DNA from: Melioribacteraceae bacterium
Lineage (GTDB): Bacteria > Bacteroidota > Ignavibacteria > Ignavibacteriales > Melioribacteraceae
Assembly (NCBI GenBank): GCA_022181065.1
Contig: BQMY01000117.1
Location: 1-64,000, forward strand
Direction of reading: 5' to 3'
DNA length: 64,000 bases
Positions 31,243 through 47,678 of the stretch are shown here, in pieces. The notes below the pieces were generated by a model, which saw only the letters and a program-made list of their open reading frames with translations, was not told the DNA's origin and made no database searches. Numbering within the stretch: position 1 is the first letter of the stretch; each line of letters starts with the position of its first letter. A program made the translations under genes and the position numbers.

Positions 31243-32614
31243 CTTTTGAAAAATATACTAAAAAAGTTGTTCCGGGTCTGTCAGGTCTGGCAATTCTTGA
31301 AGGAGACTCGGTTGCTATTTTAATTCCAAGTCGCTGAGTAATTTCGTAAACAAGTGAAAGACCCATTCCACTCCCCTCATATTCACAGTTTTTTGTATTT
31401 GCACCTCGGAAAAACTGCTCGAATATTCTGGATTGTTCATGCTTGGGAATTCCAATACCATCATCACTGATTTCTACTATTACATTTTCTCCCGAACGCT
31501 CTACTTTTATTCTAACGATACCACCCCTGGTATTATACTTGATTGCGTTACAAATCAGATTAGAGAGAGCAAGCTCAATAAGGACTTTATCTCCGATTAT
31601 TTCCCCATGATATCCTTTATTATCGTAAAAGGATACGTCTATACCTTTTGTTCTGGAACGCTCCGCATACTTATCAATCATACTTGAAATTATATCATAA
31701 AGGATCACTTTCTCCTGATTAGTAACATTCAACAATCTTAGCTTTGATATTCTTAATATATTATTTATCAATTCGATCGCTTCTTCAGAGCGTTTTCTTG
31801 CGCGAATAAGTTTCTCTTCAACTTTTTCATTAACCGGTCCGAGATATTTTTGCAAGATTAAATCTACAATGGACTGCACTGCTGAAACGGGTGTTTTGAT
31901 TTCGTGCACAACACCCATTATATATTTTTGCTTTGCGAATTCAGCTTCATGCAATTTTTCAATGTTTTCTCTTAACTCCTGTTCCCTTTTATATAATGAT
32001 CTGGCGATTCGATTAGCCAGCAACACACTTATTGCCATCATAGAAGCAAAAACCATGATGAATAATATAATATAGCTTTCGGAAAGGGTTCTTGGTTGAA
32101 GATATAATCCTGAGATATAATTCGATGCCACAATACCTTTATACTGCAGAACAATTAGTAATGAATAAACAACCGTAACTATACCGCACATAGTATAAAT
32201 GACGTACCCTGGTAAAATTAAACTACCAACGATCATCTGAAAAATGAAAAATGGATAAATAGGTGATTCGACTATTCCGGTGTATGATATTAGCACAAAA
32301 AGCGCTGATAAATCCAATATTATTTGAACCAGAGACAAGTGCAGACAATTAAACTTTCCAGGTACACACTGGATTTTTGGTCTTATTATCTGTACCGCAA
32401 GATTGTAGCCCAGAATTAATAAAAAAGTAGAAAATATTGCTATTTTTTGAGAACTGTCAAAATTAAATGCTAATAGTGTCTCTCCGGCCACAAGAAAAAC
32501 AAGGAGTAACAGCGCGAAAAAATACCTTAATCTTATAAACCAGAGGTTTCTTCTTCTTATTGCTGTCCAGAACTCATCATAATGATGTGCCCATTTTGGA
32601 ACAAGTGCAATCAT
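31163..32614 (-). CDS. Membrane sensor histidine kinase, copy A
   Basis: A 483-residue kinase. About six membrane helices fill residues 30-205, with little periplasmic domain. Then come a short linker coiled coil, HisKA with phospho-acceptor H237 (MGVVHEIKTPVSA) and HATPase_c with SNLICNAIKYN, ISDDGIGIP and SGMGLSLVYE. The last 30 residues are antisense to ispE and unlike the kinase core. It is a paralogue of the next gene. No response regulator is adjacent, so the partner lies elsewhere. An AGAGGT ribosome site precedes the ATG. Confidence 0.92.
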   Translation of the reverse strand: MIALVPKWAHHYDEFWTAIRRRNLWFIRLRYFFALLLLVFLVAGETLLAFNFDSSQKIAIFSTFLLILGYNLAVQIIRPKIQCVPGKFNCLHLSLVQIILDLSALFVLISYTGIVESPIYPFFIFQMIVGSLILPGYVIYTMCGIVTVVYSLLIVLQYKGIVASNYISGLYLQPRTLSESYIILFIMVFASMMAISVLLANRIARSLYKREQELRENIEKLHEAEFAKQKYIMGVVHEIKTPVSAVQSIVDLILQKYLGPVNEKVEEKLIRARKRSEEAIELINNILRISKLRLLNVTNQEKVILYDIISSMIDKYAERSRTKGIDVSFYDNKGYHGEIIGDKVLIELALSNLICNAIKYNTRGGIVRIKVERSGENVIVEISDDGIGIPKHEQSRIFEQFFRGANTKNCEYEGSGMGLSLVYEITQRLGIKIATESPSRIARPDRPGTTFLVYFSKVSEIQEREEQLSQDSLQETKASATPH

Positions 32615-32670
32615 CTCTACCTCTCGCTTTGCTCCTGTTAATAAGAATATAAGTCATTAAACTCATTTTC

Positions 32671-34041
32671 TCAACTTTTTACAGGGAGTATTATCTTAAA
32701 CTCAGTGCCGGGTCTGCTATTTTTTTTAAGAATTGACGGACTTTTAATAAATACACTACCTTTATGGGCTTCAAAAATATTTTTAACAACTGCCAACCCG
32801 GTTCCTGTACCCTCGATATTAGAATTTTTTGCGTTGGAAGCTCTGTAATATTCTTCAAAAATACGCTTCTGGTCTTCTTCAGGGATACCTATCCCATCAT
32901 CAATAATTTTGATACTTATTTTATCTTCTTTTTTAAGAATTATATTAACTGTTCCGCCATCAGGAGTATATTTTACCGCGTTACCAATTAAATTTGAAAA
33001 TGCCAATTGTAATAAAACCGGATCACCGGCGAATTCAGAAGCGGAGAAAGAATCTAAATCCAGGTTCAAATCTATTTCTTTTCGTCTGGCGATAGACTCA
33101 TAGTTAGCGGCAATCCTGGCGATCAATTCAGACAAGTTCAACTCTTCATGGTTAACCTGATTCAATACCTTAAACTTTGATAAACGCAGAATATTATTGA
33201 TATTGTCAATACTCTCCGTAATTCGGTTTTTTGATTTACCAATTAACTGTGAAGCATCTTCATCAATCTTTCCGGAATAGCCTCCAAGTACAAGATCAAG
33301 AAAGGAGTGAGCGGCCGCAATCGGTGATTTTAGCTCATGAACAACTGCCATAGTGTACTTTTGTTTATTTATTTCCGCTTCGGCAAGTTCTTCCATAGCA
33401 GTTCTCAACTCTTTCTCTCTATTGTAAAGTTCCGCCGCAATGCGTCTGGTAAGAAGGATGGAAGAAATTATCATAACACCGAATATAAACATGGACCCAA
33501 TCAGAAATGTAAGATCATCATATAAACTAAGTGAAAATAATCCCTCAATCTTATGGTGAGGAATCACTCCCTGATATTCCAAAAAACTAAATACCGAAAA
33601 GATGACAATAATCGAGGCACCAATAGAGTATATAATAATGCCGGGTAATAAAATACTCCCGATGATCATATGAAAAACAAAAAACATAAAAATGGGTGCT
33701 TCCAAACCACCACTAACATATACGACAATAGATAGCGCTACTATATCTTGTAAAATTTGTAAAAACGCGTAATTTAATGTTTTGTGGTTATTTTCCTCCG
33801 TTAGATTCTTAATCAAGTGCTCAAATAATATATTATAACTAAAAATGAGGAACATTACGGTTAGAATAGTGTAAAATTGAAAGTCGCTGAGCACTACACC
33901 CGGAATTACTTTTAAGGAAATCAAATATCCCATTAGCAAGGCAACGGCAAAATATCTCAGGTTAATAAACCATCTGTTATAACGTGTTACGAGATTTAGT
34001 ATTTCGTTCGACTTGAAGATTTCGTGTGGATATAGCTGCAT
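32671..34041 (-). CDS. Membrane sensor histidine kinase, copy B
   Basis: A 456-residue paralogue of copy A with the same layout: N-terminal RYNRWFINLRYFAV, about six helices to residue 200, HisKA with H235 (MAVVHELKSPIAA), and HATPase_c with SNLIGNAVKYTPDGG, IIDDGIGIP and GTGLAVVKN. It lies 56 bases upstream of copy A, so both are probably on one transcript. The stimulus may be sensed in or near the membrane because no sizeable periplasmic sensor exists. The response regulator is not in the window. Confidence 0.92.
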   Translation of the reverse strand: MQLYPHEIFKSNEILNLVTRYNRWFINLRYFAVALLMGYLISLKVIPGVVLSDFQFYTILTVMFLIFSYNILFEHLIKNLTEENNHKTLNYAFLQILQDIVALSIVVYVSGGLEAPIFMFFVFHMIIGSILLPGIIIYSIGASIIVIFSVFSFLEYQGVIPHHKIEGLFSLSLYDDLTFLIGSMFIFGVMIISSILLTRRIAAELYNREKELRTAMEELAEAEINKQKYTMAVVHELKSPIAAAHSFLDLVLGGYSGKIDEDASQLIGKSKNRITESIDNINNILRLSKFKVLNQVNHEELNLSELIARIAANYESIARRKEIDLNLDLDSFSASEFAGDPVLLQLAFSNLIGNAVKYTPDGGTVNIILKKEDKISIKIIDDGIGIPEEDQKRIFEEYYRASNAKNSNIEGTGTGLAVVKNIFEAHKGSVFIKSPSILKKNSRPGTEFKIILPVKS

Positions 34042-34103
34042 AGAAACATTCCGGGTTTGCTTTACACTAAATTACACAATTTTAAGTTATCGCAAAAGAT
34101 TCG

Positions 34104-34111
34104 TAAATTTG
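34104..34111 (+). promoter_or_regulatory. Possible Bacteroidetes-type -7 box for grx-groES
   Basis: TAAATTTG matches TAnnTTTG about 90 bases upstream of the glutaredoxin ATG, in the divergent gap with the histidine kinases. The matching -33 TTG is absent at the ideal spacing (TTA instead), so this is tentative. Confidence 0.3.
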
Positions 34112-34189
34112 TGTAGAAGTTTGATTCATATTTTTTTTAGATACCTGAAACTTTGTGTTAATTATTACATCATATGTTAATAAAAATGA

Positions 34190-34194
34190 TGAGG
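34190..34194 (+). promoter_or_regulatory. Ribosome binding site deciding the glutaredoxin start
   Basis: GAGGT lies 6 bases before the ATG at 34200. This supports that start over an in-frame GTG at 34155, which has no such site. Confidence 0.7.
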
Positions 34195-34199
34195 TAATT

Positions 34200-34448
34200 A
34201 TGCAAAATCAACCAAAAGTAATCATGTTCTCAACTCCAACATGTTCTTTTTGTAACACTGCAAAAAGATACTTCAAAGAGAAAAAAATCAGATTTAAGGA
34301 TATTGACGTAAGCCGGGACATGTCCGCAGCCAAAGATATGCAAAGAAGAACCGGCCAAACAGGTGTACCCGTTATCCTGATAAATAACAGACCTGTTGTT
34401 GGATTTGATAAAAATAAAATTGACAGAATGCTAAATATTACAAATTAA
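34200..34448 (+). CDS. Glutaredoxin-like thiol oxidoreductase
   Basis: An 82-residue protein. The glutaredoxin core starts KVIMFSTPTCSFCNTAK, with the redox pair C15 and C18 separated by two residues, then DIDVSRD, the cis-proline block GQTGVPVILINNRPVVGFD, and a C-terminal helix. It resembles NrdH/YruB-type small glutaredoxins. It lies 14 bases upstream of groES and is probably co-transcribed, which suggests a link to protein folding or redox stress. Confidence 0.9.
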   Translation: MQNQPKVIMFSTPTCSFCNTAKRYFKEKKIRFKDIDVSRDMSAAKDMQRRTGQTGVPVILINNRPVVGFDKNKIDRMLNITN

Positions 34449-34462
34449 ATTGGAGTACTATT

Positions 34463-34735
34463 ATGAAAATTAAACCAATGGACGATAGAATTCTTATAGA
34501 ATTCGTTGAAGAAAATACAAAAACCGCAGGTGGAATTATCATTCCCGATACAGTAAAAGAAAAGCCCAAAATGGGTAAAGTTGTAGCGGTTGGTACAGAT
34601 GAAGATCTGAAAGAAAATATAAAAGAAGGTGATTTTGTACTTTTCGCCAAATATGGTGGTGAAGATATTGAAGTTGAAGGAAAAGAATTCAAGATTGTGC
34701 AGCGAGCTGATATTCTGGCGATAGTAGAACAATAA
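34463..34735 (+). CDS. groES: Co-chaperonin GroES
   Basis: A 90-residue GroES: KIKPMDDRILIEFVEE, the mobile loop TAGGIIIPDTVKEKP at about residues 21-35, GKVVAVG and the C-terminal KIVQRADILAIVE. It caps GroEL during folding in the cytoplasm. A GGAG ribosome site precedes the ATG. Unusually groEL does not follow: a terminator ends the transcript five bases after the stop. So either groEL is elsewhere or this is an extra GroES copy. Confidence 0.96.
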   Translation: MKIKPMDDRILIEFVEENTKTAGGIIIPDTVKEKPKMGKVVAVGTDEDLKENIKEGDFVLFAKYGGEDIEVEGKEFKIVQRADILAIVEQ

Positions 34736-34740
34736 AATTA

Positions 34741-34765
34741 AACCCTGCCAGCGCAGGGTTTTTTA
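34741..34765. terminator. Bidirectional terminator between groES and the lipoprotein gene
   Basis: AACCCTGC, loop CAGC, GCAGGGTT: an 8-pair perfect stem, followed by TTTT on the plus strand and preceded by AT-rich sequence on the other side. It sits between convergent genes; the lipoprotein stop codon lies in its T tract. Confidence 0.85.
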
Positions 34766-35608
34766 TTCTCTTTCTAAAATTTTTACAATGGCTTTCTGAC
34801 CTTTTGAAGATTTTATCCTCAAACCGGTATCATCCAGCAAATCAATCGAAATGAATTCCAGTTCAGTTTCTCCTCTTGTTCTGGCCTTATAAATCAAACT
34901 CATTACTTCTCCCGAACCGGTAATAGACTGGCTCAGGGATGAAATACGAATACTTAATCCACTGGTAACCTTCAAATTACCAGATTGACCATCCCTGATA
35001 ACAACTGTAGTGTCAGAATATTGAGGTACAACACCAATTCCGAAAAATTCATTTGCGAGTGAACCGCTTTCAATGCTAATTAACTCAAGAAGAGTTGTAT
35101 CGAATGAAGCAATCGTGGTCATATCATAAAGATTTGAAACATCATCAACTATGATGGAAAGAGTATCAACCGAGTCAATTAGTGTATTTGTGGTTCGTGG
35201 AAAATACCTTAACGATGTACCGGCTAATGCGTCGATATAAAAAGTCAACGTTTCCGGTCCGCCTTCTATTCCGGCATTTAATCCCATCAGACTGAAAATA
35301 TATTTTCCATCATCCAGGTTCTGTAAGTATGCGGTTTTGAAAGGCAGATACTCTCCATAGGGAATAAATTCGAATAAGGAGTCGGAAAAATCGATATATT
35401 CAAGCTTGTACCTGAAATTTATCGCTTCATCTCCACCTACCCATGAAATTGTAACATCATCTGTAGTAAGAGTATCTCCATCCTCGGGAGCTTCAACAAA
35501 TTGCAGAAATTCCGGCGGAGAGTCAATTAGCGAACCATCTTGCTTACACGAATAAAAAGTAAACAAAATCAGAATAGCAAAAGTTATATTTAGTGTTTTA
35601 TTTTTCAT
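34763..35608 (-). CDS. Secreted lipoprotein with cohesin-like domain
   Basis: A 281-residue protein with a type II signal peptide: LNITFAILILFTFYSC, Cys20 being the lipid-modified residue. The first half (about 30-130) resembles a fibronectin-like domain (PEDGDTLTTDDVTISWVGG, GKYIFSLMGLNA). The second half (about 140-275) has the strand pattern of a cohesin-type domain (LELISIESGSL, ITGSGEVMSLIYKARTRGETELEF). It lies 49 bases downstream of the second beta-barrel gene pair and may be part of that envelope system. It is not claimed to bind a dockerin, since none was seen. Confidence 0.7.
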   Translation of the reverse strand: MKNKTLNITFAILILFTFYSCKQDGSLIDSPPEFLQFVEAPEDGDTLTTDDVTISWVGGDEAINFRYKLEYIDFSDSLFEFIPYGEYLPFKTAYLQNLDDGKYIFSLMGLNAGIEGGPETLTFYIDALAGTSLRYFPRTTNTLIDSVDTLSIIVDDVSNLYDMTTIASFDTTLLELISIESGSLANEFFGIGVVPQYSDTTVVIRDGQSGNLKVTSGLSIRISSLSQSITGSGEVMSLIYKARTRGETELEFISIDLLDDTGLRIKSSKGQKAIVKILERE

Positions 35609-35657
35609 TGGCGCTTGAAATATTCCAATATATAATCATCAGTGAAATGCTGTGTTT

Positions 35658-37070
35658 CTAATAATTTATTCTGATTATCGGTGAAAAGACCAGGTAATTA
35701 TCAAGTCTGTAATATGGAATTGCTTGAGTATTATTGTTGTAGCCTTTGTAATACTTAAATTCAAATCCGAATACTTTACTTAGCATTACCCTGCTCTTGA
35801 AACCAAAATAACCGTAATTATCAGAAAAATCATAATTGATCTGTAATGTTAGGTTATGCTTCAGCATTCCGTTTGATTTAATTAGTGATGCTTCGGTAAA
35901 CAAGTTAAATTTAGTACCTTCCCTACCTGAATTAAGCTCTGTTAAACTCCTTAGATCGGGCACAATATAATTATGGACAATATCGTTTATTGAGAAACCA
36001 AGTCCGGCATTAAGGTTCCACATATTCAGCACATTAACAAATTCTCTGTAATCGGCAAAAAATACAAAGAAATTATTTAATGAGTAAAATTGGGTAATAT
36101 AGTCAATATTAAAGTCATCAAAACCATACTCTGCAACCCGGAACATTCCTTCCAATTTAAAATGAAGCCTGGCTAATTCAGGCATAACCATTTTCAAAGG
36201 ATTTCCCGTTAGGCGGAAATAAATATTTTCTCCACCCTTGTATAACCTTCTACCATAACTGTCGTCATTAAATGTAAAAGTCGGCTGCCTCGCCGGAATA
36301 CCGAATCCCAAGTCGAGAGTATAGCCCGAATAAGCGCTTTTGGGAAGTATTGAATCCATAAATGTAGTTGAAACGCCCATAAAATAGTCAGTAAAATACC
36401 ACCCGGGATAGTTGATATGATCATTTCCCCACCTGCCAAAATATGAAAACAATAATCGGTTTTTAGCTCCAATATTCATTTTATAAAACATCAATTTTGG
36501 TTGGGTAAAATGAAGGAATATATCAAAATTATAATTCCTTGAAGTACTTGATTCCGACTTTGTGAGATCTACATCAGAATAGAGTCTGCTTTTTAAGTAT
36601 TCATAAGTATTCTCACCCAATATTTTCTTTATCACCAAATGATCTTCAACAGGATCAAAGAAATAATTTTTACTGGAAGTACCACCATCATTTTTTTGAG
36701 GAGTGTAAAATCTTATATACTCAATTTCGTCATCATAATAACGTTTTCTCAGCTCAATAAACACCTTACCATCATAGATGTACTGAATCCGATTTTCAAT
36801 ATCATACGATTCGGCAGGTAAACCGTTAATTCTAAATGCATTTTTAACTACAAATCGATTAAAAATATGGCGTACCATTCCCGGTTCGGTTATATCCCAG
36901 ACAGGTTTGAGATCGTTAAAAGCAATAGTATTATACTCGAGATTACTATAAATATTTTTGGCTCTTTCCAGCTTTTCATCCTGAGCATTTACATGTTGCG
37001 AAGATGTGAAAAGAAAAACGATAAACAATGAAAGGAATTTTATCCCGCTCAAGTAATATTTAGAAGCCAT
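35658..37070 (-). CDS. Predicted outer-membrane beta-barrel protein, type B, copy 2
   Basis: A 470-residue protein with an N-terminal signal peptide (LSLFIVFLFTSSQHVNAQ). The mature N-terminus IYSNLEYNTIAFNDLK and the VKNAFRING and ELRKRYYDDE blocks are shared with the type B protein at 38731. The remainder is rich in alternating aromatic strands (for example FFVFFADYREFVNVLNMWNL) and it ends FSPIIRINY, with the terminal aromatic typical of outer-membrane barrels. An AGGT ribosome site precedes the start, which overlaps the upstream type A gene by 11 bases. I do not recognise a named family. Confidence 0.75.
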   Translation of the reverse strand: MASKYYLSGIKFLSLFIVFLFTSSQHVNAQDEKLERAKNIYSNLEYNTIAFNDLKPVWDITEPGMVRHIFNRFVVKNAFRINGLPAESYDIENRIQYIYDGKVFIELRKRYYDDEIEYIRFYTPQKNDGGTSSKNYFFDPVEDHLVIKKILGENTYEYLKSRLYSDVDLTKSESSTSRNYNFDIFLHFTQPKLMFYKMNIGAKNRLLFSYFGRWGNDHINYPGWYFTDYFMGVSTTFMDSILPKSAYSGYTLDLGFGIPARQPTFTFNDDSYGRRLYKGGENIYFRLTGNPLKMVMPELARLHFKLEGMFRVAEYGFDDFNIDYITQFYSLNNFFVFFADYREFVNVLNMWNLNAGLGFSINDIVHNYIVPDLRSLTELNSGREGTKFNLFTEASLIKSNGMLKHNLTLQINYDFSDNYGYFGFKSRVMLSKVFGFEFKYYKGYNNNTQAIPYYRLDNYLVFSPIIRINY

Positions 37071-38589
37071 ATCTGTACCTCACACCAAACATTGTGCTAC
37101 CCGAATTTTCCCACTCATGAGTCGAGCGGTATAATGGTGAAAATATAATTCCGGTAACAAATCTGAACTTATGACCTCCTTCTAATTCAAGTAATTTTAG
37201 CCAGAAATCAGCTTTAAGTACACTATCAAAAATTCTCAGGTTGGCACCAAATATTTCATTGTCAATTCTTTTTTGTTTTGGCACAAATGCCAGATTGAAA
37301 TTTATTATTGGCTGCCATTTGTTGTAAACCTCATTACTGCTCACACTACCCTTGTAGTATGTTGCCTTAACAACATTGTAAGTACCTAATCCAAAATCCA
37401 TTCTGAATCTTAACAGTTTCTCATCACTATCATTCCAGTAGAATGAAAATGTTGTCGCAAATTCATTAAAGGTGAAAAATGCGTACGAACTATCCGCTGA
37501 ACCGAATGAAACACCAGGATTATCAAAGTTTTTACCACCGGTGACAAAATGAAGATTGAGAAAAGGAATATCAAAATAACGGGTAGTACTTATATCAAAT
37601 GAAAGTCCAGTACCTACATTCAATTTCGGTTTATCAGACCCCACAAATGGCATTGCAGAAGCAACAGATTCCGAACCTACCGCAAATCTCCCCATAATTT
37701 TAGCATCTATTACCAGATCGTTTTTCATTCGTTTTTTATCACCTGTAATGAAGAACAATCCTCTTCCACCAATATTCAACGCCATACTCTGCCAGGGATG
37801 CAAATTGAGTAAATCACTCTCCATTGACATTTCTGCACTGAGAATGGTAAAATCGAGATCCATCTCTTTATGATAAAAACTTGCATGCGCTAGTGAAGCG
37901 TCGATCATAAATTCCGCGCCTGATGAAACAGCTCGGCGTCTGGCTCGCGGACTTAAATTTTCAGCTCCATTACCCGAAATTAAAGCAACACTTTTGGGAT
38001 AAATATGTTTACTATGAATCCACATATCGTTTAGGAAATCTGTATTATCAAGGCTTGTCATACCACGTTTAATCTCATATTCCTCAATAGGGATATTTAA
38101 TCTGGAATATGGTTCGTATTGCCCAAGGCTTGATATCACAAAATTAGTGATTGAAGTATATAATTCCGGATCAGAGAAATACAATTCATTCAAATCCGCG
38201 AAAGAAAGCAATGTTTCTCTTTGGGGTTCCTGCACCGTTGTAGAAGCGCCTCCAAAGAAATCCGAGCGTGTTTCCTGGGAAGCAGCCCGAAGATACTCAA
38301 CCCTCAATAAAGTTAGACTATCGATATTAATATTCTTCTGAATGAAAACAAAAAAGTAAGTATAGTCTTCTGAGGCAAAGAATTTAACAGGGTTATTACC
38401 AAGTGTAGGTACTACCGCGGGTAATTTTTCCAGATCGGAATTGGTAAGACTCAATTGCATCGAGTGGATATCGAGATAATCCACATCGAATTCAATTCTA
38501 TCTTCTATTCTTTGATAATACTCACTCAATTCCTGGGCATAAAATAAAGAGGATAATGAGACAAGCAGTAGTACCACAAACTTTGTCAT
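37060..38589 (-). CDS. Predicted outer-membrane beta-barrel protein, type A, copy 2
   Basis: A 509-residue protein with signal peptide KFVVLLLVSLSSLFYAQ. The N-terminal 200 residues form a non-barrel region with DYLDIHSMQLSL, DNTDFLNDMWIHSKHIY and a Ser/Arg-rich turn. The last 280 residues have alternating hydrophobic strands and end GVRYRYGF, a barrel-type terminal Phe. It is paralogous to the gene at 40133, sharing the N-terminal block around DYL(D/N)IH and the RYRYG end. It opens the second A-B pair, behind a terminator. No known family name. Confidence 0.75.
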   Translation of the reverse strand: MTKFVVLLLVSLSSLFYAQELSEYYQRIEDRIEFDVDYLDIHSMQLSLTNSDLEKLPAVVPTLGNNPVKFFASEDYTYFFVFIQKNINIDSLTLLRVEYLRAASQETRSDFFGGASTTVQEPQRETLLSFADLNELYFSDPELYTSITNFVISSLGQYEPYSRLNIPIEEYEIKRGMTSLDNTDFLNDMWIHSKHIYPKSVALISGNGAENLSPRARRRAVSSGAEFMIDASLAHASFYHKEMDLDFTILSAEMSMESDLLNLHPWQSMALNIGGRGLFFITGDKKRMKNDLVIDAKIMGRFAVGSESVASAMPFVGSDKPKLNVGTGLSFDISTTRYFDIPFLNLHFVTGGKNFDNPGVSFGSADSSYAFFTFNEFATTFSFYWNDSDEKLLRFRMDFGLGTYNVVKATYYKGSVSSNEVYNKWQPIINFNLAFVPKQKRIDNEIFGANLRIFDSVLKADFWLKLLELEGGHKFRFVTGIIFSPLYRSTHEWENSGSTMFGVRYRYGF

Positions 38590-38697
38590 AATCAGGTATA
38601 AAATTAAGTTTCTAAATAACCAATTTTGAAAAACATAAAACTGTTTTTATTTCTCCGTTTTATGTTGAAATATTTTATCTACTTTATTTTACCCCCT

Positions 38698-38737
38698 GGA
38701 AAAAAGGAAGGCTACTAACCGGAAAACCGGTTAGTAG
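38698..38737 (-). terminator. Terminator between the two beta-barrel gene pairs
   Basis: On the minus strand CTACTAACCGG, loop TTTT, CCGGTTAGTAG makes a perfect 11-pair stem, followed by CCTTCCTTTTTTCC. The left arm includes the stop codon of the type B gene. It should end or reduce transcription of the first pair before the second. Confidence 0.8.
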
Positions 38738-40122
38738 TTAATTTTAAGTATCGGAGAAAATACAACGTAATCACCTCTCCATAATGCATCGTACTGTTTT
38801 GCGTCGATACCAAAGTTATTCATAACTTTAACTTCGAAACCAAATGTTGAACTGATCATGGCTTTTACAGTAGCGCCATAATATCCCCAACCATCTGATA
38901 CATTATAACCACCTAGGACTTGAAGATCATGCTGAATCAAGCCACCGTTGTTATCAATACCAACGTTAAATGTCATAAAGTGCTTGAATTTATCAAAATC
39001 TTCGCGATTTTCAAGATCAATCACGCTTAAAGTTGCCTGATCAATTCTTAATTTGTGAAGATCATGAGAAGCAAGACCCGCACCTGCATAAAGCTGACCA
39101 AAATCGAACATGTTGGTGATATCTCTGTAAATCCAACTTAGACTAAAGTAGTTTTTAACAGCAACAAAATCCTGATTAACGTTATAAATTCCAAAATCTT
39201 TGTATTTGTAATCAGCATAGGTAATAAAACTTTCAACATTCAGATAAACATTCTCAAACTCTTCGGTAATGTTTTTAAGAAGATCACCCGAAAGAGCGAA
39301 ATATGCGGAACTACCAGATTTAAACATAGGCATAGTAGGTAGATCAGCAATAAAAGGTTTTGATGTATTTGTACCGGTACCAACTGATAATTTGTAAGTA
39401 TAATCAGAAGGATCGTCGCCAAGAGCGTTATAATACGTGAGGCTAACTCCAGCAACATATTCTGCCGAGAACCAACCTGGTAAGAATATTTTATCAAAAC
39501 CCCACTTACCGAATAATGAAAGAAGGTATTTATTTCTTACACCCGAAGTAGTTGACCAAAACATAAGTTCAGGTTCGAGCATATTCAGGTCAATATCAAA
39601 ATAATAGCCATATTTGGTTTCGTAAACGTCCTTTGTCACATCACTGAAAAAGTAAGTCTGTTCCTGCATCTTGTCATAAAGTCGCGGACCAATAATTTCT
39701 TTAAGATAGAAACCATCCTCCACGGGATCGAACAAAGGAATTGGCTTTACTTCATCTGACTGATCAATAGAAATAAACGCGAAATATTCAAATTCTTCAT
39801 CATAATACCTTCTTCTAAGGTCAACGATAACTTCTCCATCGAAAACAGCATTAGCTTTTTCCATAACTACCTGAACATCGGCAGGTTGACCATTTATTCT
39901 GAAGGCATTTTTAACTGCGAATTTGTTAAATAACTCCCTGATAAAACCGGGATCATTTATAAACCACTTTCTTTTCAAGTCATCAAACGCTATTGTATTG
40001 TACTCAAGATTTGAGTAAATAGTATTCAACTCCTCTTTAGACTGTGATCCATTAGTTTCCTGAGCGTAATTAACATTTGTCAGGATAAATACTGTCAATA
40101 TATATAAAACTAATTTCTTCAT
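38731..40122 (-). CDS. Predicted outer-membrane beta-barrel protein, type B, copy 1
   Basis: About 463 residues from the ATG at 40122, with an AGGT ribosome site 8 bases upstream; the TTG at 40131 has none. Signal peptide KKLVLYILTVFILTNVNYAQ. The mature protein starts with a Glu/Asn/Ser-rich linker and then IYSNLEYNTIAFDDLK, FAVKNAFRINGQPAD, DLRRRYYDEEFEY, the block shared with copy 2. The C-terminal part has barrel-like strands and ends FSPILKINY. It lies 10 bases after type A copy 1, so the A-B pair is translated together. Function unknown. Confidence 0.75.
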   Translation of the reverse strand: MKKLVLYILTVFILTNVNYAQETNGSQSKEELNTIYSNLEYNTIAFDDLKRKWFINDPGFIRELFNKFAVKNAFRINGQPADVQVVMEKANAVFDGEVIVDLRRRYYDEEFEYFAFISIDQSDEVKPIPLFDPVEDGFYLKEIIGPRLYDKMQEQTYFFSDVTKDVYETKYGYYFDIDLNMLEPELMFWSTTSGVRNKYLLSLFGKWGFDKIFLPGWFSAEYVAGVSLTYYNALGDDPSDYTYKLSVGTGTNTSKPFIADLPTMPMFKSGSSAYFALSGDLLKNITEEFENVYLNVESFITYADYKYKDFGIYNVNQDFVAVKNYFSLSWIYRDITNMFDFGQLYAGAGLASHDLHKLRIDQATLSVIDLENREDFDKFKHFMTFNVGIDNNGGLIQHDLQVLGGYNVSDGWGYYGATVKAMISSTFGFEVKVMNNFGIDAKQYDALWRGDYVVFSPILKINY

Positions 40123-40132
40123 TGTCGTCAAC

Positions 40133-41665
40133 CTAGTTATTTAATCCATATCTGTATCTGATTTGCACTGCGGCACCGCCATCTGTCTCCCAACCTTCCG
40201 CATCACGGAAGAACGGAGCGGAAACATAATTTGCTTCGAGTCTGAACATATGATCCGGTGCAATCTGGAAGATTGTCAACCATGCCCAATAATTAAATGC
40301 GCTGTCGAAAAATTTGAGTTTGGCACCCATTACCGGGTTATTTTTCGGAGCCCAGGTATAATTAAGAGCGATCATCGGCTGGAATTTTGCAAACACCTGC
40401 TTTGAACCAAGCAGAGCGTCAGTGGCGTTAACCCACTCAGCTTCAACAACATCATAATATCCGGCGCCTATGTCCATTCTGAATCTGCTTGTTAATTTAT
40501 CCGACGTGTTCCAGAAAAATGACATACTTACTTCAGCTTCGTTAAATGTGTGATAGGAAAACTTCCTGGTTCCCTTAAACACATATACTGCCGGATCAGT
40601 TACATCCCTGTCACCTGTTGAGAAGTAGAAATTCAGATATGGGAAATTACCCATTTTTGAAAAATTAAACTGACCGTAAATACCTGTACCAAAATTAAGA
40701 GCAGGAGGATCACCAAATATCCATGGTTGTGCATCATAGATATCACGTGTTCCAAGATTAACTCTTGCGCCAAACTTGGCATTCAGGAAGGTTGAATTAC
40801 TTATCCCGCGTTTATCGCCGGCAAGCATGAATAACATTTTTATACCAGCTCTAACAGTCATAGACTGATGCGGCAATACATTTACAACCGGCTGAGTAAA
40901 ATCCAGTTCAACACTTGCACCACCATCCTCAAGAATAGCGTTCATACTTTCGTGAGAAAAACTGATTTTTGAAATACTGGCGTCAATTTTAAATGCCGTA
41001 CTGCTACCAGCGCTTCTTCCTCTTCGGGAACTACCGGCGGCTTCATCTTTGAACCAGTGTATTTCATAAGTTTTAGCGTAATTAATGAAATCGGTATTAT
41101 CGCGCGAAGTTAAACCCAAGCTGGTTTTAATATCACCTTCAGTATTAATTCTTAACAAAGACTGTGGAGGGTCTTCAGGATTTAACCTTAAATGTTCCAT
41201 CACCATCTTTTGCATAGAATAATAATACTCAGGATTATTGAGTTTTAGATTGTGCAAATCACTAAACTTCAACACAACTGTGGTATCATCAGAGATATCT
41301 CCGATGGCGGAGAAAAAGCCTCCTTCAGCACTGGTATTAACCCTTATTTCATCCACATAAAGCAAATAAAGGGAATCAATTCCCAGCCCTTCGTTCAGAA
41401 AGATTAGACGATAAGACACATTATCATCCTCAATAAAACCAAAAGGCTCATTTTTACTTACTCTCGGGATACTTTTAAGTAACGGATCAATACCATCCTG
41501 TGGATAGACAGGGATGTAGTGTATATTGAGATAATCCTTGTCTTTCCTCAACTTGAGATCAATTTTATCAACAAGGTCTTCAGCCTGTTGCTGTGCCAGA
41601 ATTGAAGTGAACAATGCTGACACAAGGAAAAAACCTAAAACTATATTTAATATTTTTTTATCCAT
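40133..41665 (-). CDS. Predicted outer-membrane beta-barrel protein, type A, copy 1
   Basis: A 510-residue protein with signal peptide KKILNIVLGFFLVSALFTSILAQ. N-terminal non-barrel segment with DYLNIHYIPVYP, LNEGLGIDSLYLLYVDEIR and DNTDFINYAKTYEIHWFKDE, then a Gly/Ser/Arg-rich turn and about 280 residues of alternating barrel strands ending AAVQIRYRYGLNN. It is paralogous to the gene at 37060. It lies 37 bases downstream of the 365-residue secreted protein and so is in the gldL-like operon. Not recognised beyond outer-membrane barrel. Confidence 0.75.
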   Translation of the reverse strand: MDKKILNIVLGFFLVSALFTSILAQQQAEDLVDKIDLKLRKDKDYLNIHYIPVYPQDGIDPLLKSIPRVSKNEPFGFIEDDNVSYRLIFLNEGLGIDSLYLLYVDEIRVNTSAEGGFFSAIGDISDDTTVVLKFSDLHNLKLNNPEYYYSMQKMVMEHLRLNPEDPPQSLLRINTEGDIKTSLGLTSRDNTDFINYAKTYEIHWFKDEAAGSSRRGRSAGSSTAFKIDASISKISFSHESMNAILEDGGASVELDFTQPVVNVLPHQSMTVRAGIKMLFMLAGDKRGISNSTFLNAKFGARVNLGTRDIYDAQPWIFGDPPALNFGTGIYGQFNFSKMGNFPYLNFYFSTGDRDVTDPAVYVFKGTRKFSYHTFNEAEVSMSFFWNTSDKLTSRFRMDIGAGYYDVVEAEWVNATDALLGSKQVFAKFQPMIALNYTWAPKNNPVMGAKLKFFDSAFNYWAWLTIFQIAPDHMFRLEANYVSAPFFRDAEGWETDGGAAVQIRYRYGLNN

Positions 41666-41702
41666 ACCATTCTGCTAGCTATTTAATTGGAAGATCAATG
41701 AC

Positions 41703-42800
41703 CTACATTATTATTGTGGCTTCGTATTCGTACTCTACATTTTTCTCATACTGCGTACTAAATCTCATCTTGATTTTCACCGGTACTTCGTCTCCTATCT
41801 CAAGAACATCAATAAATTCCTGATTAAGGTCAAGAGAAACAATTGTAAAGTAACCTGACTGAGCGAAGTTACCACCTCTACCCGGCATTAAAAAATCAGC
41901 CGGTTCCGAAGTAATCTGTAAATTCCGCAATTTTGCAGGAGCAGCTACAAGACTACCGTCCTCTTCAACGTAACCTGTGTAAATAAAATAGAAAGTAAGC
42001 AGTTTCTTATTAAATGGTGAAATGTAATAAACACCACCTTCTTCAGCTTCATCAGCATTACTAAGATCTTTCCAGGTAACAAAACCGCTAAGTTGAGGTG
42101 GAATAACGTTAAATGACCACCTTGTATCTTTCAGTTCTCCTGTTTCAGCCTCTTTGTACTGGAATTCCTGACCGTTATACATACCAATTACAGTATAACT
42201 TTGCCCAAGCGATTCGTCTTTTTTCAAAACTTCATCCAGATTGACAACAGCACCCCTTCCCGTATCAATAACCTGACCGCCGCTATTCTGCACTTCATAT
42301 GAATATTTTAGCGGATCTGTGTACTCCGCGGTAGCAAAACTGAAAGTTTCCTTTTCACCGGGATAGTAACTTTCCCTTATACTAACCTTGGCGGGCATGT
42401 TGGGATTATCAACCAAAAGGAGGTAGTAACCCGATTGTGTTCTTCTTCTTGTTTCATCGACAAAATCGAGGTCTATTCTTACATAGTAAGTACCGGCTTT
42501 ATCAGTAACGCCATAAACTTCATAAACTACAGTTTCACCACGTTCACCACCCTTTAGCTGGTTTGGTGCCTGGAAATACTCTGTAAGCTCTTTTAATTCG
42601 TTACCCGATTCATCAAGAAGAGTAGCTTTGATGTCGTTAATTTTTTTGATGTTCGTTAAAACTATCTGCTTTCTTGCCGGCACCTTAAATTGTTGAAGCG
42701 CTACCACGTGAATGGTATCACTTACATTAAAGCCCTGCCCCGCCAGAAAACTGACAGTCAGAAGGAAAAGTATTATCACTCTTTTCATAGGACCCTTCAT
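41703..42800 (-). CDS. Secreted Ig-like periplasmic protein, possible split GldM part
   Basis: A 365-residue protein from ATG 42800 (ATG 42788 possible) with signal peptide KRVIILFLLTVSFLAGQG. Repeated beta-rich segments suggest several Ig-like domains at about 25-130, 135-230 and 235-365 (GTYYVRIDLDF, PGEKETFSFATAEY, VPVKIKMRFSTQYEKN). It lies after the GldM-like gene, so it may supply the periplasmic domains that full GldM carries on its own chain. That is an inference from order and size; no GldM motif is directly visible. A hairpin lies between the two genes. Confidence 0.65.
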   Translation of the reverse strand: MKGPMKRVIILFLLTVSFLAGQGFNVSDTIHVVALQQFKVPARKQIVLTNIKKINDIKATLLDESGNELKELTEYFQAPNQLKGGERGETVVYEVYGVTDKAGTYYVRIDLDFVDETRRRTQSGYYLLLVDNPNMPAKVSIRESYYPGEKETFSFATAEYTDPLKYSYEVQNSGGQVIDTGRGAVVNLDEVLKKDESLGQSYTVIGMYNGQEFQYKEAETGELKDTRWSFNVIPPQLSGFVTWKDLSNADEAEEGGVYYISPFNKKLLTFYFIYTGYVEEDGSLVAAPAKLRNLQITSEPADFLMPGRGGNFAQSGYFTIVSLDLNQEFIDVLEIGDEVPVKIKMRFSTQYEKNVEYEYEATIIM

Positions 42801-42825
42801 ATCTTTTATAACTGATTACAAAACA

Positions 42826-42848
42826 GATGCGGTAAAAAATACCGCATC
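42826..42848 (-). terminator. Hairpin inside the envelope operon, possible attenuator
   Basis: On the minus strand GATGCGGTA, loop TTTTT, TACCGCATC forms a perfect 9-pair stem, followed by TGTTTTGTAATC. It lies 8 bases past the GldM-like stop and 26 bases before the next start. The T run is broken, so it would be a weak terminator or an mRNA processing or stabilising signal. Confidence 0.5.
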
Positions 42849-42856
42849 AGACAAAA

Positions 42857-43471
42857 CTAAAATAGCACATCAGCCGCTTTGGTTTTAACACCGCCGCCAG
42901 AAGATACATTTACTACAAAGTCAACCTTATCACTAGTAATAAGATTGTTACCATCTTCATAATGAAGTTCTTCTTTCAATTGCTCCAGAAGATGATCGGT
43001 TAGATATCCGGGCAATTCTCTTTCAACTTCACAATATGCCACAAAATTATACTTTCCGGTACGTTTGAATTCACCAAGAAAAACCGCGTTTCCGCTTTGT
43101 GTTTCAATAACAAAACGTTCGTTTGAAATCTGTGTTGAATTTATACCACCTTCAGGCCAACCGGATGGTGATCGTTTACTATCAGGATTAACATCTATGA
43201 AGTAGAGCACTTTGGCTTTTTCTTCCTCTGAAACTAATCCTGCCGGTGTCATAACAATCTTGTGAGGTTCTTTATTTTTCAGGCTATAGTCAGAATCTCT
43301 TTGCGGTACCTGCAAAACAATCGGCTGACTGTAAGAACGAGCCAAACTCGTGATCATCTTATCCCTGATTTCATGCTCTATGTGTTCAAGCTCATCTCGT
43401 TCGGTGATAACAATAAGCAATTCAACAAGAATAACGATGTAGAGTACGAAGTAAACCATACTTTTTTTCAT
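42857..43471 (-). CDS. GldM-like single-pass inner-membrane protein
   Basis: A 204-residue protein: two lysines at the N-terminus, one membrane helix at about 5-22 (MVYFVLYIVILVELLIVI) and a periplasmic domain of about 180 residues with a long amphipathic helix after the membrane segment (ITERDELEHIEHEIRDK). Position behind a GldL-like gene, topology and the helix-then-beta layout match GldM/PorM, but it is less than half the usual GldM length. A glutamate (E17) lies in the membrane helix, as the Asp does in ExbD, TolR and MotB. A strong GGAGG site at 43480-43484 precedes the ATG. GldM assignment is an inference. Confidence 0.6.
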   Translation of the reverse strand: MKKSMVYFVLYIVILVELLIVITERDELEHIEHEIRDKMITSLARSYSQPIVLQVPQRDSDYSLKNKEPHKIVMTPAGLVSEEEKAKVLYFIDVNPDSKRSPSGWPEGGINSTQISNERFVIETQSGNAVFLGEFKRTGKYNFVAYCEVERELPGYLTDHLLEQLKEELHYEDGNNLITSDKVDFVVNVSSGGGVKTKAADVLF

Positions 43472-43491
43472 CGTAATTACCTCCTACTTGA

Positions 43492-44037
43492 TTATGAGCT
43501 CTTAAGAGTCTCTTTCATTTCACTAAGTGCCTGAAGATTCTTTTTATTTATGTCGTTAACTTTTTCAGATATTTTGTCGAATCTTTCCAAATACCCGTCA
43601 ATCATCTTAACTTCATCTTCAGTAAGACTTTTTAAGATGTCAACACTATCTTTGATCTCTTTTGCGTTTATATTGATCTTGGCCTGAGCAGCACCTGCCG
43701 CGTCGGCTTTTTCTTTATCTTCTTTCCCATGGGGCTCTTCAGGTGTGAAGAATGTCACGAAAGCCAGGATAAAGAGCATTACAAACTCTATATAGAGTGC
43801 TATCATTACCCATTGAATACCGATACGATCGCCATCTAGCAAAAATTCCGGTACAAGTGGGTTACCTGCTACGCTGGCTCCTAATCCACGCAAACCGACG
43901 ATGATAATCAAGATTGCCGCACCGATATAAACTAATCCCATTACGTTATTAGCATACTGTGGTACGAAATAATAAACCATAAATCTTCCGATAAAGGTTC
44001 TTGGTTCATGCCGATTGCGTTTTTTTGATTCAGCCAC
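43492..44037 (-). CDS. GldL-like two-helix motor protein
   Basis: A 181-residue protein starting at a GTG (44037) with a strong GGAGG site. Two membrane helices: about 31-49 (NVMGLVYIGAAILIIIVGL) and 75-97 (QWVMIALYIEFVMLFILAFV). E84 in the second helix sits where GldL/PorL carries its essential glutamate, and the helix ends AFVTFFTPEEP, recalling the SAFEP end of GldL. The C-terminal half is a charged cytoplasmic coiled coil. In T9SS and gliding, GldL forms a pentameric proton-driven stator around GldM. Family match is by topology, motif and neighbour, not by search. Confidence 0.65.
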   Translation of the reverse strand: MAESKKRNRHEPRTFIGRFMVYYFVPQYANNVMGLVYIGAAILIIIVGLRGLGASVAGNPLVPEFLLDGDRIGIQWVMIALYIEFVMLFILAFVTFFTPEEPHGKEDKEKADAAGAAQAKININAKEIKDSVDILKSLTEDEVKMIDGYLERFDKISEKVNDINKKNLQALSEMKETLKSS

Positions 44038-44043
44038 TGCTTA

Positions 44044-44048
44044 CCTCC
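44044..44048 (-). promoter_or_regulatory. Strong Shine-Dalgarno site of the GldL-like gene
   Basis: GGAGG lies 6 bases before the GTG at 44037. It is the best support for using this non-ATG start. Confidence 0.75.
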
Positions 44049-44095
44049 AAGAAATATTGATGAATGTTATTAAGATACTTTGTATTATATTAAGT

Positions 44096-44128
44096 CAAAT
44101 ATACAAATTACTGACAAATTAGCAAAAA
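44096..44128 (-). promoter_or_regulatory. Bacteroidetes-type promoter of the GldL/GldM-like operon
   Basis: On the minus strand TTTTTTG (with the -33 TTG at 44123-44125), a 19-base spacer and TATATTTG (44096-44103). This is the Bacteroidetes sigma consensus TTTG-N19-TAnnTTTG with exact spacing. Transcription would begin near 44088, giving a leader of about 50 bases before the GTG start. Confidence 0.65.
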
Positions 44129-44487
44129 ATAATTATTCGATTTTTATATATTGAATTTAAAATGTTTATTAAATCGTTCGATGATGCATATCATCTAAAA
44201 TTTTCATAAGAGGCGTTTGTATCGGCACATCACTTGGTCGCAATATATCAAATAAGGTAGAAATATCAAATAATGTATAGTACAATCTTAATTTATAACA
44301 ACAATTTAATAACGTAATGAATATTTTCAAGTTTTAAATTATTACTTTTTTAATATTTTGTTGCAACCCGAGTGAATGAGGCTAGATTATTTTGGACTGA
44401 TATAGAACATGCAATAATGTTATATTTTTCAATAACATTAATATTAAAAATAAAAGTTATAGTCAAGCATACGTCATAAAGAAATAA

Positions 44488-46053
44488 TTATTTATGATCT
44501 GCATCAACAAACCATTGAAAAAATTCCTTTAACACTTCCCTGCGTTTTTCACCAAGAAAATAAAAATTTATTCCTCTAGGATTCACTTCCCAGAATTCTT
44601 CCTCCGTTGTTCCAAAAATTATATCCCTGATCTTGTTGATACGGGAAAGCGGCTCAACCTTCATATCCTCAAAGATCACCTTCGCAAGCCCCGTTTCATT
44701 ATTCAATAAATAAAATCCCGCGAGCTTTGCCTGAGCAATCCTTACACCAATAAGAGAAATTTCCTTCGACTTGTCCTTACCCGGTTTATCATCCAGGGGC
44801 TCGTCCAAATTAAGGAATTGCCTCAATAAAGGTTCAATATTAGATACTTTTTTCTCATATGCCAGCTCATTAAGACGACAAAGATCATGAGCTGCGGTTT
44901 CAAGTATAAAAAGGACACCATTCTTACTTGCTTCATGACCGTAATACCTGAAGTGATATGAAATTCGTTCAACTTCTTTGGGATTAGTATCAAGAAGTAA
45001 TTCGGCAACTATTCGATAATGCTCAAGTGTATTAAACGCGGTTCTTGGGGATTTATCCGTAATAGCGAGTCGCAAATATGTATTAAAATATTGGAAGACT
45101 GTTAAAAGACACCCTTCATCTTTGTTTTTGATTGCTTCAAAGGAAATTAATTCTGTGTTAAGTAATACTCCACCAGCGACATCTCTTAGCGAAAGATGTG
45201 CTTTATGGAATATTAACTCATATAACCTGAATACTTTTCTTTCAAGAAGAATCTTCCGCGATTCTATTTTATTCATCACAAAAGAACTATAGCTCGAAAA
45301 ATCAGGATCGAGGTACTCAAGTCCGGTACGCTTAAACCACTTCTCGGGAAGTTTCCGTTTAATCTCGAGATATTTAACGGTAAACTCGCGAAGAGTATTT
45401 AAACACAGGAGGATAACTGCTCTATCCCCCTGATAAATTGAATTAAGCGCTATATCCCCGATAAAATTGATATCCTCATTAATACCATCCCTGAGATTAA
45501 CACTGTATCGTATCTTTCCCCTGCCAAGCTTGAAAAAGGTATTTATTATATTAACTTTTATATAAGTTAGAAAATTTTGTGGACGCAGAAAGTTAAAAAC
45601 ATAAATAAAATGAGGTACAAATATTAAAAGATTCACTACAACCAGAAAAAGTGTAAGAGTTAATGTAAAGTAAGGTATCCGGTCTTCTTTAAGTGTATTT
45701 GTAACGAGGATAGTATTTACCGAAGTTATAACAAATATTGAAAAAACTACCTGATTTACTCTGTTGCTCATGAAAATGTCCATGATTTTCGGGGAGTATT
45801 TGTTCGCCGCAAGCTGAACCACAATGGCGACGGCCGTAATTTCTATACCAAGAACAGCAGCAATTACTTCACTCATTCCCCCTACTGTATTTGTGAGGTT
45901 CCCAATATCATTCGCAAATATGTGTTTGAATAACATGATGTTATTCAGTTCCAGTATATGATCCACAAATCTGCTGAAAATAAATGTGAGTCCGCTGATT
46001 ATCATTAAAATAATCAGTGAGCGCATCCAATTGAAATTGGTTTGGCTGTTCAT
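44488..46053 (-). CDS. DUF2254-like membrane protein
   Basis: A 521-residue protein with about four membrane helices in its first 160 residues. The segment VLGIEITAVAIVVQLAANKYSPK followed by NRVNQVVFSIFVI resembles the conserved block of DUF2254 membrane proteins. The remaining 350 residues are helical and cytoplasmic, without a recognised enzyme motif. A terminator of the MFS gene lies upstream, so it has its own promoter. A 450-base gap follows. Function unknown. Confidence 0.65.
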   Translation of the reverse strand: MNSQTNFNWMRSLIILMIISGLTFIFSRFVDHILELNNIMLFKHIFANDIGNLTNTVGGMSEVIAAVLGIEITAVAIVVQLAANKYSPKIMDIFMSNRVNQVVFSIFVITSVNTILVTNTLKEDRIPYFTLTLTLFLVVVNLLIFVPHFIYVFNFLRPQNFLTYIKVNIINTFFKLGRGKIRYSVNLRDGINEDINFIGDIALNSIYQGDRAVILLCLNTLREFTVKYLEIKRKLPEKWFKRTGLEYLDPDFSSYSSFVMNKIESRKILLERKVFRLYELIFHKAHLSLRDVAGGVLLNTELISFEAIKNKDEGCLLTVFQYFNTYLRLAITDKSPRTAFNTLEHYRIVAELLLDTNPKEVERISYHFRYYGHEASKNGVLFILETAAHDLCRLNELAYEKKVSNIEPLLRQFLNLDEPLDDKPGKDKSKEISLIGVRIAQAKLAGFYLLNNETGLAKVIFEDMKVEPLSRINKIRDIIFGTTEEEFWEVNPRGINFYFLGEKRREVLKEFFQWFVDADHK

Positions 46054-46099
46054 TCTAAAATCTCAAGTTGTTTTTCTTCTTAAGTTAATCAAATCTTGT

Positions 46100-46130
46100 G
46101 GAAAAAGTAAATCCGGCATAAGCCGGATTT
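46100..46130 (-). terminator. Terminator after the MFS transporter gene
   Basis: AAATCCGGC, loop ATAA or TTAT, GCCGGATTT: a perfect 9-pair stem at 46109-46130, seven bases past the MFS stop, followed on the minus strand by ACTTTTTCC. Confidence 0.75.
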
Positions 46131-46136
46131 AATAAT

Positions 46137-47678
46137 TTAACTTTCTTTAGTCCTGAAACCTTTTAACATCCATTTTTTTGCCAGAATCAATCCAACGGGA
46201 CTCACCATAGCGATAATTGCGTACACAAGCCATAAAAACTCTGAATTCATTTGCTCCGGTGCTGTATCGAGCGGAATGTACTGAGTCAGGAACCATCCAG
46301 AGAAAAATCCGGTAATTACTTTTGTTAAAAACCACGGAAACTGACCTACTCCCATATACATTCCGGTCTTCCCTTTCGGGGCAATCTCGGCAATCCACTG
46401 TAAAAATCTGGGCTGCCACATTGCTTCACCTATGGTCATAAGTAAAATATATATTAAAAATAGTGAGGGGTTAGGGCCTAAAACGAGCAAAAATGTAGGT
46501 ACTGCCATAACAAAAGTACCATAAATCATCATTTTATAGACATCGGCTTTTGCGGTCAAACCTGCAACTACCGGAGCCAAAACAAAAATTAATATCGGAT
46601 TCAGATTCGAGAATACCTCAAAATTCTCGCTAACAAACGAACCCGCAAATGCTCTGTCGAGATAGTAAGGAACTGTTAACCAGTTATGCGCGAACAAGGT
46701 TTGAACCGGAATCAATATAAAAATGAAAAAAACAAAACGAACATCACGGAAAGGATGATCATTTCTTGCTTTGAGATATTCACGAATGGCACCACCAAAT
46801 AACGCCAGTGCGATTAGGAGAATATATTCATTAACGTACATAAAATATAAAACAAGAGCTATCAGGAATAACAAACCCCAAATAATGGCAGGAATATTAT
46901 TGAGCTTCTCTTTATTTTCATCTGTTGTTTCTTCTTCATCACTTCCGGAAACTTTTTTATATGCTGCTTTATCCGCTGCCTTTGTGATAAGAATCACTGA
47001 AAACATCAATGCAAATATGGTAAGCACGACATAAATCCAGAAAACGCCGGTCAAACCGTTGGGTGTGAATACATCCTCAAAATATGGTCTGGTGCTGGAT
47101 GATATTACCCCTGAAAAGAACGCGCCAAGATTCATAAATCCGTAGATGACAGCATATCCCATCGAAGCTGTTTTTTCATCGGTATATCTTTTGACACCTG
47201 CATACGCGGCCGGCTGGTATAACCCATAGCCCAAAGTTACAAGTAGCAGCCCGAATACCATCATAAAGAACATTGGTGACCACAATCCGCCGTCAAGCCC
47301 AAGTGTACCCGATAATGCCACAAATACACGCCCCACAAGCATCGCGAATAACGCAAGCGCAAGCGATAACCTGATTCCAAGTTTATCCGACATTCCACCA
47401 AGAAGAAGCATAGCCAGAGTGATACCTCCGGTAAGTCCACTATAAACATACCCTGAGTGAATATCAGACAATGCGACATTTTCAGAACAATATTTGCCCA
47501 GAATTGTTAAAATCCCGAAGTAAACAAGTCCCTCCAGAATATATGGAACATAAATGCCCCACAATGCGCGTGGCGCGTGTGCAAATGCCCTGAAAGTCTG
47601 CCCCAATTCACTAATAGAATCAGAAAGAACTTCACCAAATGTTTTGCTTTCTTCTACCTGCTTGTTAATATCTGCCAT
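46137..47678 (-). CDS. MFS transporter (POT-related)
   Basis: A 513-residue transporter with 12 or more helices. The loop GGMSDKLGIRLSLALALFAMLVGR fits the MFS loop 2-3 motif (GxxSDRxGRR), and PRFLQWIAEIAPKGKTGMYMG resembles the later block of POT/nitrate-type carriers. A charged cytoplasmic loop (DEEETTDENKEK) splits the two halves. The substrate cannot be read from sequence. It lies 16 bases downstream of murB but ends in its own terminator. Confidence 0.85.
   Translation of the reverse strand: MADINKQVEESKTFGEVLSDSISELGQTFRAFAHAPRALWGIYVPYILEGLVYFGILTILGKYCSENVALSDIHSGYVYSGLTGGITLAMLLLGGMSDKLGIRLSLALALFAMLVGRVFVALSGTLGLDGGLWSPMFFMMVFGLLLVTLGYGLYQPAAYAGVKRYTDEKTASMGYAVIYGFMNLGAFFSGVISSSTRPYFEDVFTPNGLTGVFWIYVVLTIFALMFSVILITKAADKAAYKKVSGSDEEETTDENKEKLNNIPAIIWGLLFLIALVLYFMYVNEYILLIALALFGGAIREYLKARNDHPFRDVRFVFFIFILIPVQTLFAHNWLTVPYYLDRAFAGSFVSENFEVFSNLNPILIFVLAPVVAGLTAKADVYKMMIYGTFVMAVPTFLLVLGPNPSLFLIYILLMTIGEAMWQPRFLQWIAEIAPKGKTGMYMGVGQFPWFLTKVITGFFSGWFLTQYIPLDTAPEQMNSEFLWLVYAIIAMVSPVGLILAKKWMLKGFRTKES

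Follow-up and report, generated by a model that had tools for sequence, protein, structure and literature searches.

In Flavobacterium, SprB is a giant repetitive surface protein that is exported by the type IX secretion system (T9SS) and encoded beside the outer-membrane barrel SprF, and among the ion-driven stators of other envelope machines, MotA has four transmembrane (TM) helices. According to PMC9389320, the ion-driven motors known from cell envelopes are of only a few kinds. Conserved Glu and Arg residues in membrane helices, accompanied by a one-TM partner, are a usual mark of such stators, and Glu49 in the second TM helix (TMH2) of GldL is strictly conserved and required by the Flavobacterium johnsoniae motor (passages of PMC8986121). 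Here we describe a locus in a stretch of 64,000 nucleotides from a Melioribacteraceae bacterium (contig BQMY01000117.1, positions 1 to 64,000, hereafter the window), in which a two-TM and a one-TM protein are encoded in one operon with an immunoglobulin-like (Ig-like) protein, outer-membrane barrels and a predicted lipoprotein. We tentatively propose, at odds a little short of even, that the operon encodes a motor similar to GldLM, whose target would be barrels carrying or exporting a giant T9SS adhesin.

The eight open reading frames listed for this locus in an initial annotation, made from the sequence alone, were all present in the order given there, on the minus strand from 44037 to 34763. 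We refer to their products as A (181 amino acids, aa), B (204), C (365), D1 (510), E1 (466), D2 (509), E2 (470) and F (281). No fitting Pfam or NCBIfam family was found for A to E, and scans of all eight proteins gave chance matches only. Similarly, searches of A and B profiles against PDB sequences returned only coiled-coil or chance matches.

The candidate motor consists of the first two proteins. A (43492..44037, minus strand) is a two-TM protein with GldL-like architecture, and hydropathy placed its helices at residues 31-49 and 77-95. B (42857..43471, minus strand) has a single helix at 5-23, followed by a predicted periplasmic domain. The helix counts of both proteins and a membrane Glu in A had been given in the initial annotation, and hydropathy and residue conservation agree with that description. 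Residue counts for A come from an alignment of 64 non-identical homologues to its profile, those for B from 45 homologues. Glu84 of A was present in 64/64 sequences, while position 50 was Arg in 62, Lys in one and a gap in one. By hydropathy, two helices were found in 45/64 A homologues, four in 18/64 and five in 1/64, and in all 13 four-helix forms that were laid out the A motif corresponded to the last two helices. In B, Tyr11 and Glu24-Arg25-Asp26 were present in 45/45 homologues and Glu17, which lies inside the helix, in 39/45; Lys3, at the spacing from the Tyr that Arg9 has in GldM, was found in 22/45, with a gap in 15. The B set excludes two second-copy B-like proteins (L207:4072, 499 aa, by the length filter, and L156:10571), in which the ERD motif is replaced by SDRD and KDRE, respectively.

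The resemblance to GldL and GldM lies in the anatomy. Both systems have a two-TM and a one-TM protein encoded in one operon with a beta-rich periplasmic extension, and A and GldL alike place a Glu in TMH2, with TMH1 holding a basic residue 11 positions past the G of a GA motif (Lys27 and Glu49 of GldL are each conserved in 16/16). However, A has Arg at the place of Lys27 and a longer loop between the helices, the shaft is divided into two proteins (B and C) rather than formed by one as in GldM, and the B helix holds the extra Glu17. The operon also differs from gldKLMN in that no GldK- or GldN-like gene is adjacent, an absence already pointed out in the initial annotation, and outer-membrane barrels stand there instead. 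A membrane motor pair with an acidic membrane residue is equally a feature of ExbBD, TolQR and MotAB, and the four-TM forms of A resemble the layout of MotA, but the operon proteins gave no match to PF01618 (MotA/ExbB/TolQ) and little profile similarity to these families. Five ExbB/TolQ/MotA-type matches were found elsewhere in the genome.

Profile-profile comparisons of A with GldL gave P-values of 0.015 to 0.033 in local and 0.83 and 0.0054 in global alignment of the A core. Full-length A reached P-value = 0.024, yet the alignment fell on the tail and not on the helices. Five distant A proteins gave P-value = 5.6e-4 and the four-TM forms 0.0051 and 0.028, while pooled A sets were weak (0.0079 to 0.11, including 0.019 and 0.061), and pooling gave no gain. 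The B helix matched the GldM helix with P-value = 0.011, whole B with 0.073 to 1. When A-type profiles were compared with profiles built from 30 sequences of ExbB/TolQ/MotA type, P-values were 0.098 to 0.35 in 7/8 comparisons, and three of the four A-type profiles scored better against GldL than against this group. In a decoy ranking, a weak test with few decoys from which those that were A and B themselves were left out, A scored highest among 4 (three of which belong to one family), and B scored highest among 17 in what was nearly a tie (15.0 vs 14.9). Because the profile-profile scores are weak, membership of the GldL and GldM families is not established, and what stands of the proposed GldL/GldM resemblance is the architecture and the charged membrane residues.

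The third gene (41703..42800, minus strand) encodes C, for which AlphaFold2 modelled three Ig-like beta domains (pLDDT 91.4) behind a signal-like N-terminus, in line with its first description as a secreted Ig-like protein. Fold searches with C retrieved Ig strings of a generic kind (Foldseek at best E 1.6e-9, with TM ~0.24; VIA Z at most 7.8), and GldM was not among the matches listed. In two related loci (L156 and L207), a single polypeptide of 499-537 aa matches B in its N-terminal part and, further on, the middle of C. Because B- and C-like segments are fused there, C may be the detached outer portion of a longer B-type shaft; that the fusion reflects common Ig domains alone is the weaker reading.

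The next four genes form two D-E pairs on the minus strand, D1 (40133..41665) with E1 (38731..40131) and the second copies D2 (37060..38589) with E2 (35658..37070), the start of E2 overlapping the end of D2. E1 was modelled (pLDDT 83.3) as a barrel with some 14 strands, preceded by an alpha/beta region at the N-terminus. Its best fold chains were CymD, TodX and FadL (Z 12.8-13.6 over 202-243 residues), with no Pfam match. Since other barrels follow closely at Z 10-12.6, among them the Klebsiella protein CymA (12.6), OmpG (up to 12.5) and the T9SS translocon protein PorV (11.8), the match indicates a barrel type and no clear single family. D1 is predicted to be an outer-membrane barrel with an N-terminal periplasmic region on the basis of conservation and a profile link to E (P-value = 1.6e-4 directly, stronger via distant homologues). 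In this way, of the four barrels first proposed, E1 is backed by a model and E2 by its paralogy to E1, while the D proteins are reached by their profile link to E only.

Conservation was analyzed in 58 genomes of the same order (own genome included), in 20 neighbourhoods from 19 other genomes and in 35 loci from a GTDB genome scan, the latter two sets sharing some genomes. A relatives were found in 20/58 genomes, and a profile search gave an equal count. A, B and C were consecutive in 20/20 neighbourhoods, with D next in 19. Conservation of the order outside this strain was a point on which the initial annotation had let its proposal depend, and in the GTDB scan A-B-C-D was consecutive in 27/35 loci and D-E-D-E was found in 17. 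Among the eight loci lacking the A-B-C-D row, three run off their contigs (L097, L105 and L107), three have the A motif alone (L108-L110) and two are variants, L104 and L106. In these variants, A-B-C is followed by one protein of ~300 aa that replaces D-E (L104:12879-13787 and L106:4262-5134) and is possibly a small barrel.

At the level of the class, which includes the Ignavibacteria, the A profile was found in 164/391 genomes (E <= 0.01) and the B profile in 116/294. Outside the order, a single B match is the rule in B-bearing genomes, and the open frames that contain it are mostly 500-800 aa long. In many of 20 stretches around such distant B genes, two genes behind B, here called X and Y, match the D and E profiles (X 97.1 percent to D and 83.6 to E; Y 97.4 percent to E and 96.8 to D), and in L209 an A of the 450-aa type adjoins a long B. 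An OmpA-domain protein often accompanies B-X-Y. The OmpA proteins of L192, L193 and L196 (about 440-455 aa) consist of VWA plus OmpA and for this reason are not called PorE; a VWA-OmpA protein of this kind could bind peptidoglycan. The PorE label itself derives from a single protein and chiefly picks up the OmpA domain. In L153, a neighbour of 1,961 aa proved not to be PorU.

The probable cargo was identified in relatives. A gene on the same strand stands behind the last E in 15 of the 35 loci, L078, where the next gene is a D, being excluded. In 11 of the 15, it belongs to one BLAST-linked family of giant proteins and lies 7-84 bp away. Members have a signal-like start and Ig-like repeats (Pfam Kre9_KNH and others), and in five genomes their lengths are 5,413, 5,237 and 4,635 aa for three complete proteins and at least 4,684 and at least 1,557 aa for two cut ones. 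A T9SS type A sorting domain was detected above cut-off at the C-terminus of all four that reach that end. Because of its size and repeats, we regard the giant as a putative adhesin. A homologue of F follows the giant in 3/4 relatives (25-32% identity, E 7e-33 to 3e-46). F itself (34763..35608, minus strand) is a predicted lipoprotein, its N-terminus reading as lipoprotein-like in agreement with the earlier call. Between F and E2, the gap at 35609..35657 marks the place where relatives hold the giant gene, and the window is an operon version without it. Apart from the shared sorting domain, nothing of the giant was found in the window or in the 20 kb of contig that follow it; the rest of the genome was not searched. 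The arrangement in relatives is similar to SprB/SprF in that the gene of a giant T9SS-exported repeat protein adjoins a barrel gene, and it differs in that the sorting domain is of type A, not type B, that there are two types of barrel with hardly any cysteines and that motor-like genes belong to the operon.

The mechanism we propose starts from what was observed, namely the genes with their order and conservation, the membrane charges, the modelled structures of C and E, and the giant's sorting domain. A, probably in five copies, and B, probably in two, would form an ion-driven inner-membrane motor of GldLM/MotAB type, in which the passage of ions by Glu84 and Arg50 of A would make B turn or tilt. 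Lengthened by C, B would transmit force over the periplasm to D and E through contacts with their N-terminal periplasmic regions. The D/E barrels would then hold, move or assist the release of the giant, in the way that SprB is served in Flavobacterium by SprF and the GldLM energy chain, and adhesion and adhesin movement may be the result.

Several observations weigh against this proposal. Neither GldL (TIGR03513) nor GldM (TIGR03517) was matched by any of the eight proteins, which, together with the weak profile-profile scores, goes against the family assignment that the initial annotation had offered for checking, and no sequence similarity of A or B to GldL, GldM or other motor families was significant. 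Against a group of five ExbB/TolQ-type sequences, the A core of the window's subfamily gave P-value = 0.012 (out of register), better than its 0.031 with GldL. Past residue 30, there is no cysteine in 29/32 D and 26/30 E proteins. SprF and PorG are tied to GldK by disulfides (PMC12635249), and since most D and E proteins are almost free of cysteine, this type of coupling would be inapplicable to them. The same paper describes that in known systems PorV takes type A cargo and a dedicated carrier takes type B, and the giant is of type A. Its gene is missing from the operons of both the window and the near relative L076, where F stands directly behind E2; a different gene follows the last E in 4/15 loci, and in five further loci the next gene is on the opposite strand. 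As for gliding, Ignavibacterium album looked non-motile and Melioribacter roseus flagellar in a table note of PMC9318685, and no account of gliding in these bacteria was among the literature matches listed.

The distribution of T9SS genes is relevant to another explanation, in which the operon serves secretion itself, A/B replacing GldL/GldM and D/E or X/Y replacing the GldK/GldN hub, so as to power SprA. The genome probably exports T9SS cargo, because a subtilase (S8) with FG-GAP repeats encoded in the window (2705-6931, minus strand) bears a T9SS sorting domain above the NCBIfam cut-off. SprA was present in 57/58 genomes of the order and in 43/43 B-bearing genomes outside it (hand-picked from ~100), and GldL was above cut-off in 0/58 genomes of the order and 0/284 of the class, with 28/118 phylum genomes positive, a pattern that favours such an energy chain. 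GldM and GldN (PF19841, above cut-off) were each found in 0/58, no control genome being positive for either, and no second cluster was detected by the GldL, GldM and GldN profiles, with controls silent for the latter two and GldK not searched. Some neighbours point the same way: in L201 the B-X-Y-OmpA operon begins 985 bp past the end of SprA, a PorE-like gene below cut-off lies behind E in L041, and the 450-aa A adjoins a PorU-like gene (L148 and L152) or a fragment with a weak PorU2-like match (L161) in 3/6 such loci. However, the PorU-like scores are 189 and 126 bits vs a cut-off of 420, SprA lies within only 1/20 of the distant-B stretches, and all 38 genomes of the order without A carry SprA, so that A is dispensable for the T9SS in this order. 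We consider a T9SS energy chain unlikely, although it is the strongest competitor of our proposal. Of the two options left by the initial annotation, a divergent T9SS core or a separate motor powering barrels, the latter fits better in this order, given SprA in 57/58 and A in 20/58 genomes.

Two further explanations concern what the putative motor does, or whether there is one. If the operon encoded a Ton/Tol-like importer, its motor would open FadL-like barrels for hydrophobic or large substrates; the fold neighbours of E1 among FadL, TodX and CymD channels and the paired barrels as transporters would suit this, but the similarity is generic, extending to CymA, OmpG and autotransporters, hardly any ExbB/TolQ similarity was detected, no TonB-like match was present in the operon, and surface display better explains the giant T9SS cargo and the lipoprotein genes. 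An importer is accordingly very improbable in our view. A static trans-envelope scaffold or signalling complex displaying the adhesin would agree with the zero matches to motor-family profiles and with DUF2254 and histidine kinase genes near some loci; such a scaffold poorly explains the conserved Glu and Arg in two membrane helices with a one-TM partner, and we judge it improbable, less so than an importer.

The surroundings of the operon were also inspected. A Bacteroidetes-type promoter-like site (TTTG-N19-TATATTTG; 44096..44126, minus strand) lies 59 bp upstream of A's GTG start codon, so the matching site reported earlier does exist upstream of A. The pattern itself is common, with 4 sites in the window vs 1.81 expected and at least 4 reached by 11/100 shuffles, and because it is not rare, the promoter call leans chiefly on position. 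Terminator-like hairpins occur within the operon between E1 and D2 (38712-38737, minus strand) and between B and C (42826-42848, minus strand); in 34000-46200, 12 such hairpins were seen vs 8.7 expected. Those inside the operon could adjust the dosage of the parts. Upstream of A, U (44488..46053, minus strand) is a DUF2254 membrane protein (Pfam PF10011, E 3.3e-14), and a DUF2254 homologue is located immediately upstream of A in 18/35 loci of the GTDB scan and occurs in 11/20 neighbourhoods of the same order. Downstream of the operon, a pair of related tandem membrane histidine kinases is encoded at 31163-34041 (minus strand), and a histidine kinase homologue stands behind F in L023.

No motor of this kind was among the listed literature matches for Ignavibacteria, Kapabacteria and Melioribacter with T9SS, SprA, gliding and adhesin. 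In its widest form, which we think rather unlikely, the proposal would give the Bacteroidota a second machine for gliding or for propelling adhesins, independent of the first, with its own proton motor, Ig-like shaft, carriers and giant adhesin in one operon; the motor family would also be the missing T9SS energy chain where SprA occurs without GldLMN, and its four-TM members would link GldL-type and MotA-type layouts. The motor candidate is widespread across the class without a Pfam or NCBIfam match, and its probable outer-membrane end is encoded with it, as is, in relatives, a probable cargo. The candidate is relevant to the gap presented by SprA-bearing genomes in which GldL, GldM and GldN did not turn up, and the two-TM and four-TM forms within one family bear on the relation between GldL and MotA-like stators.

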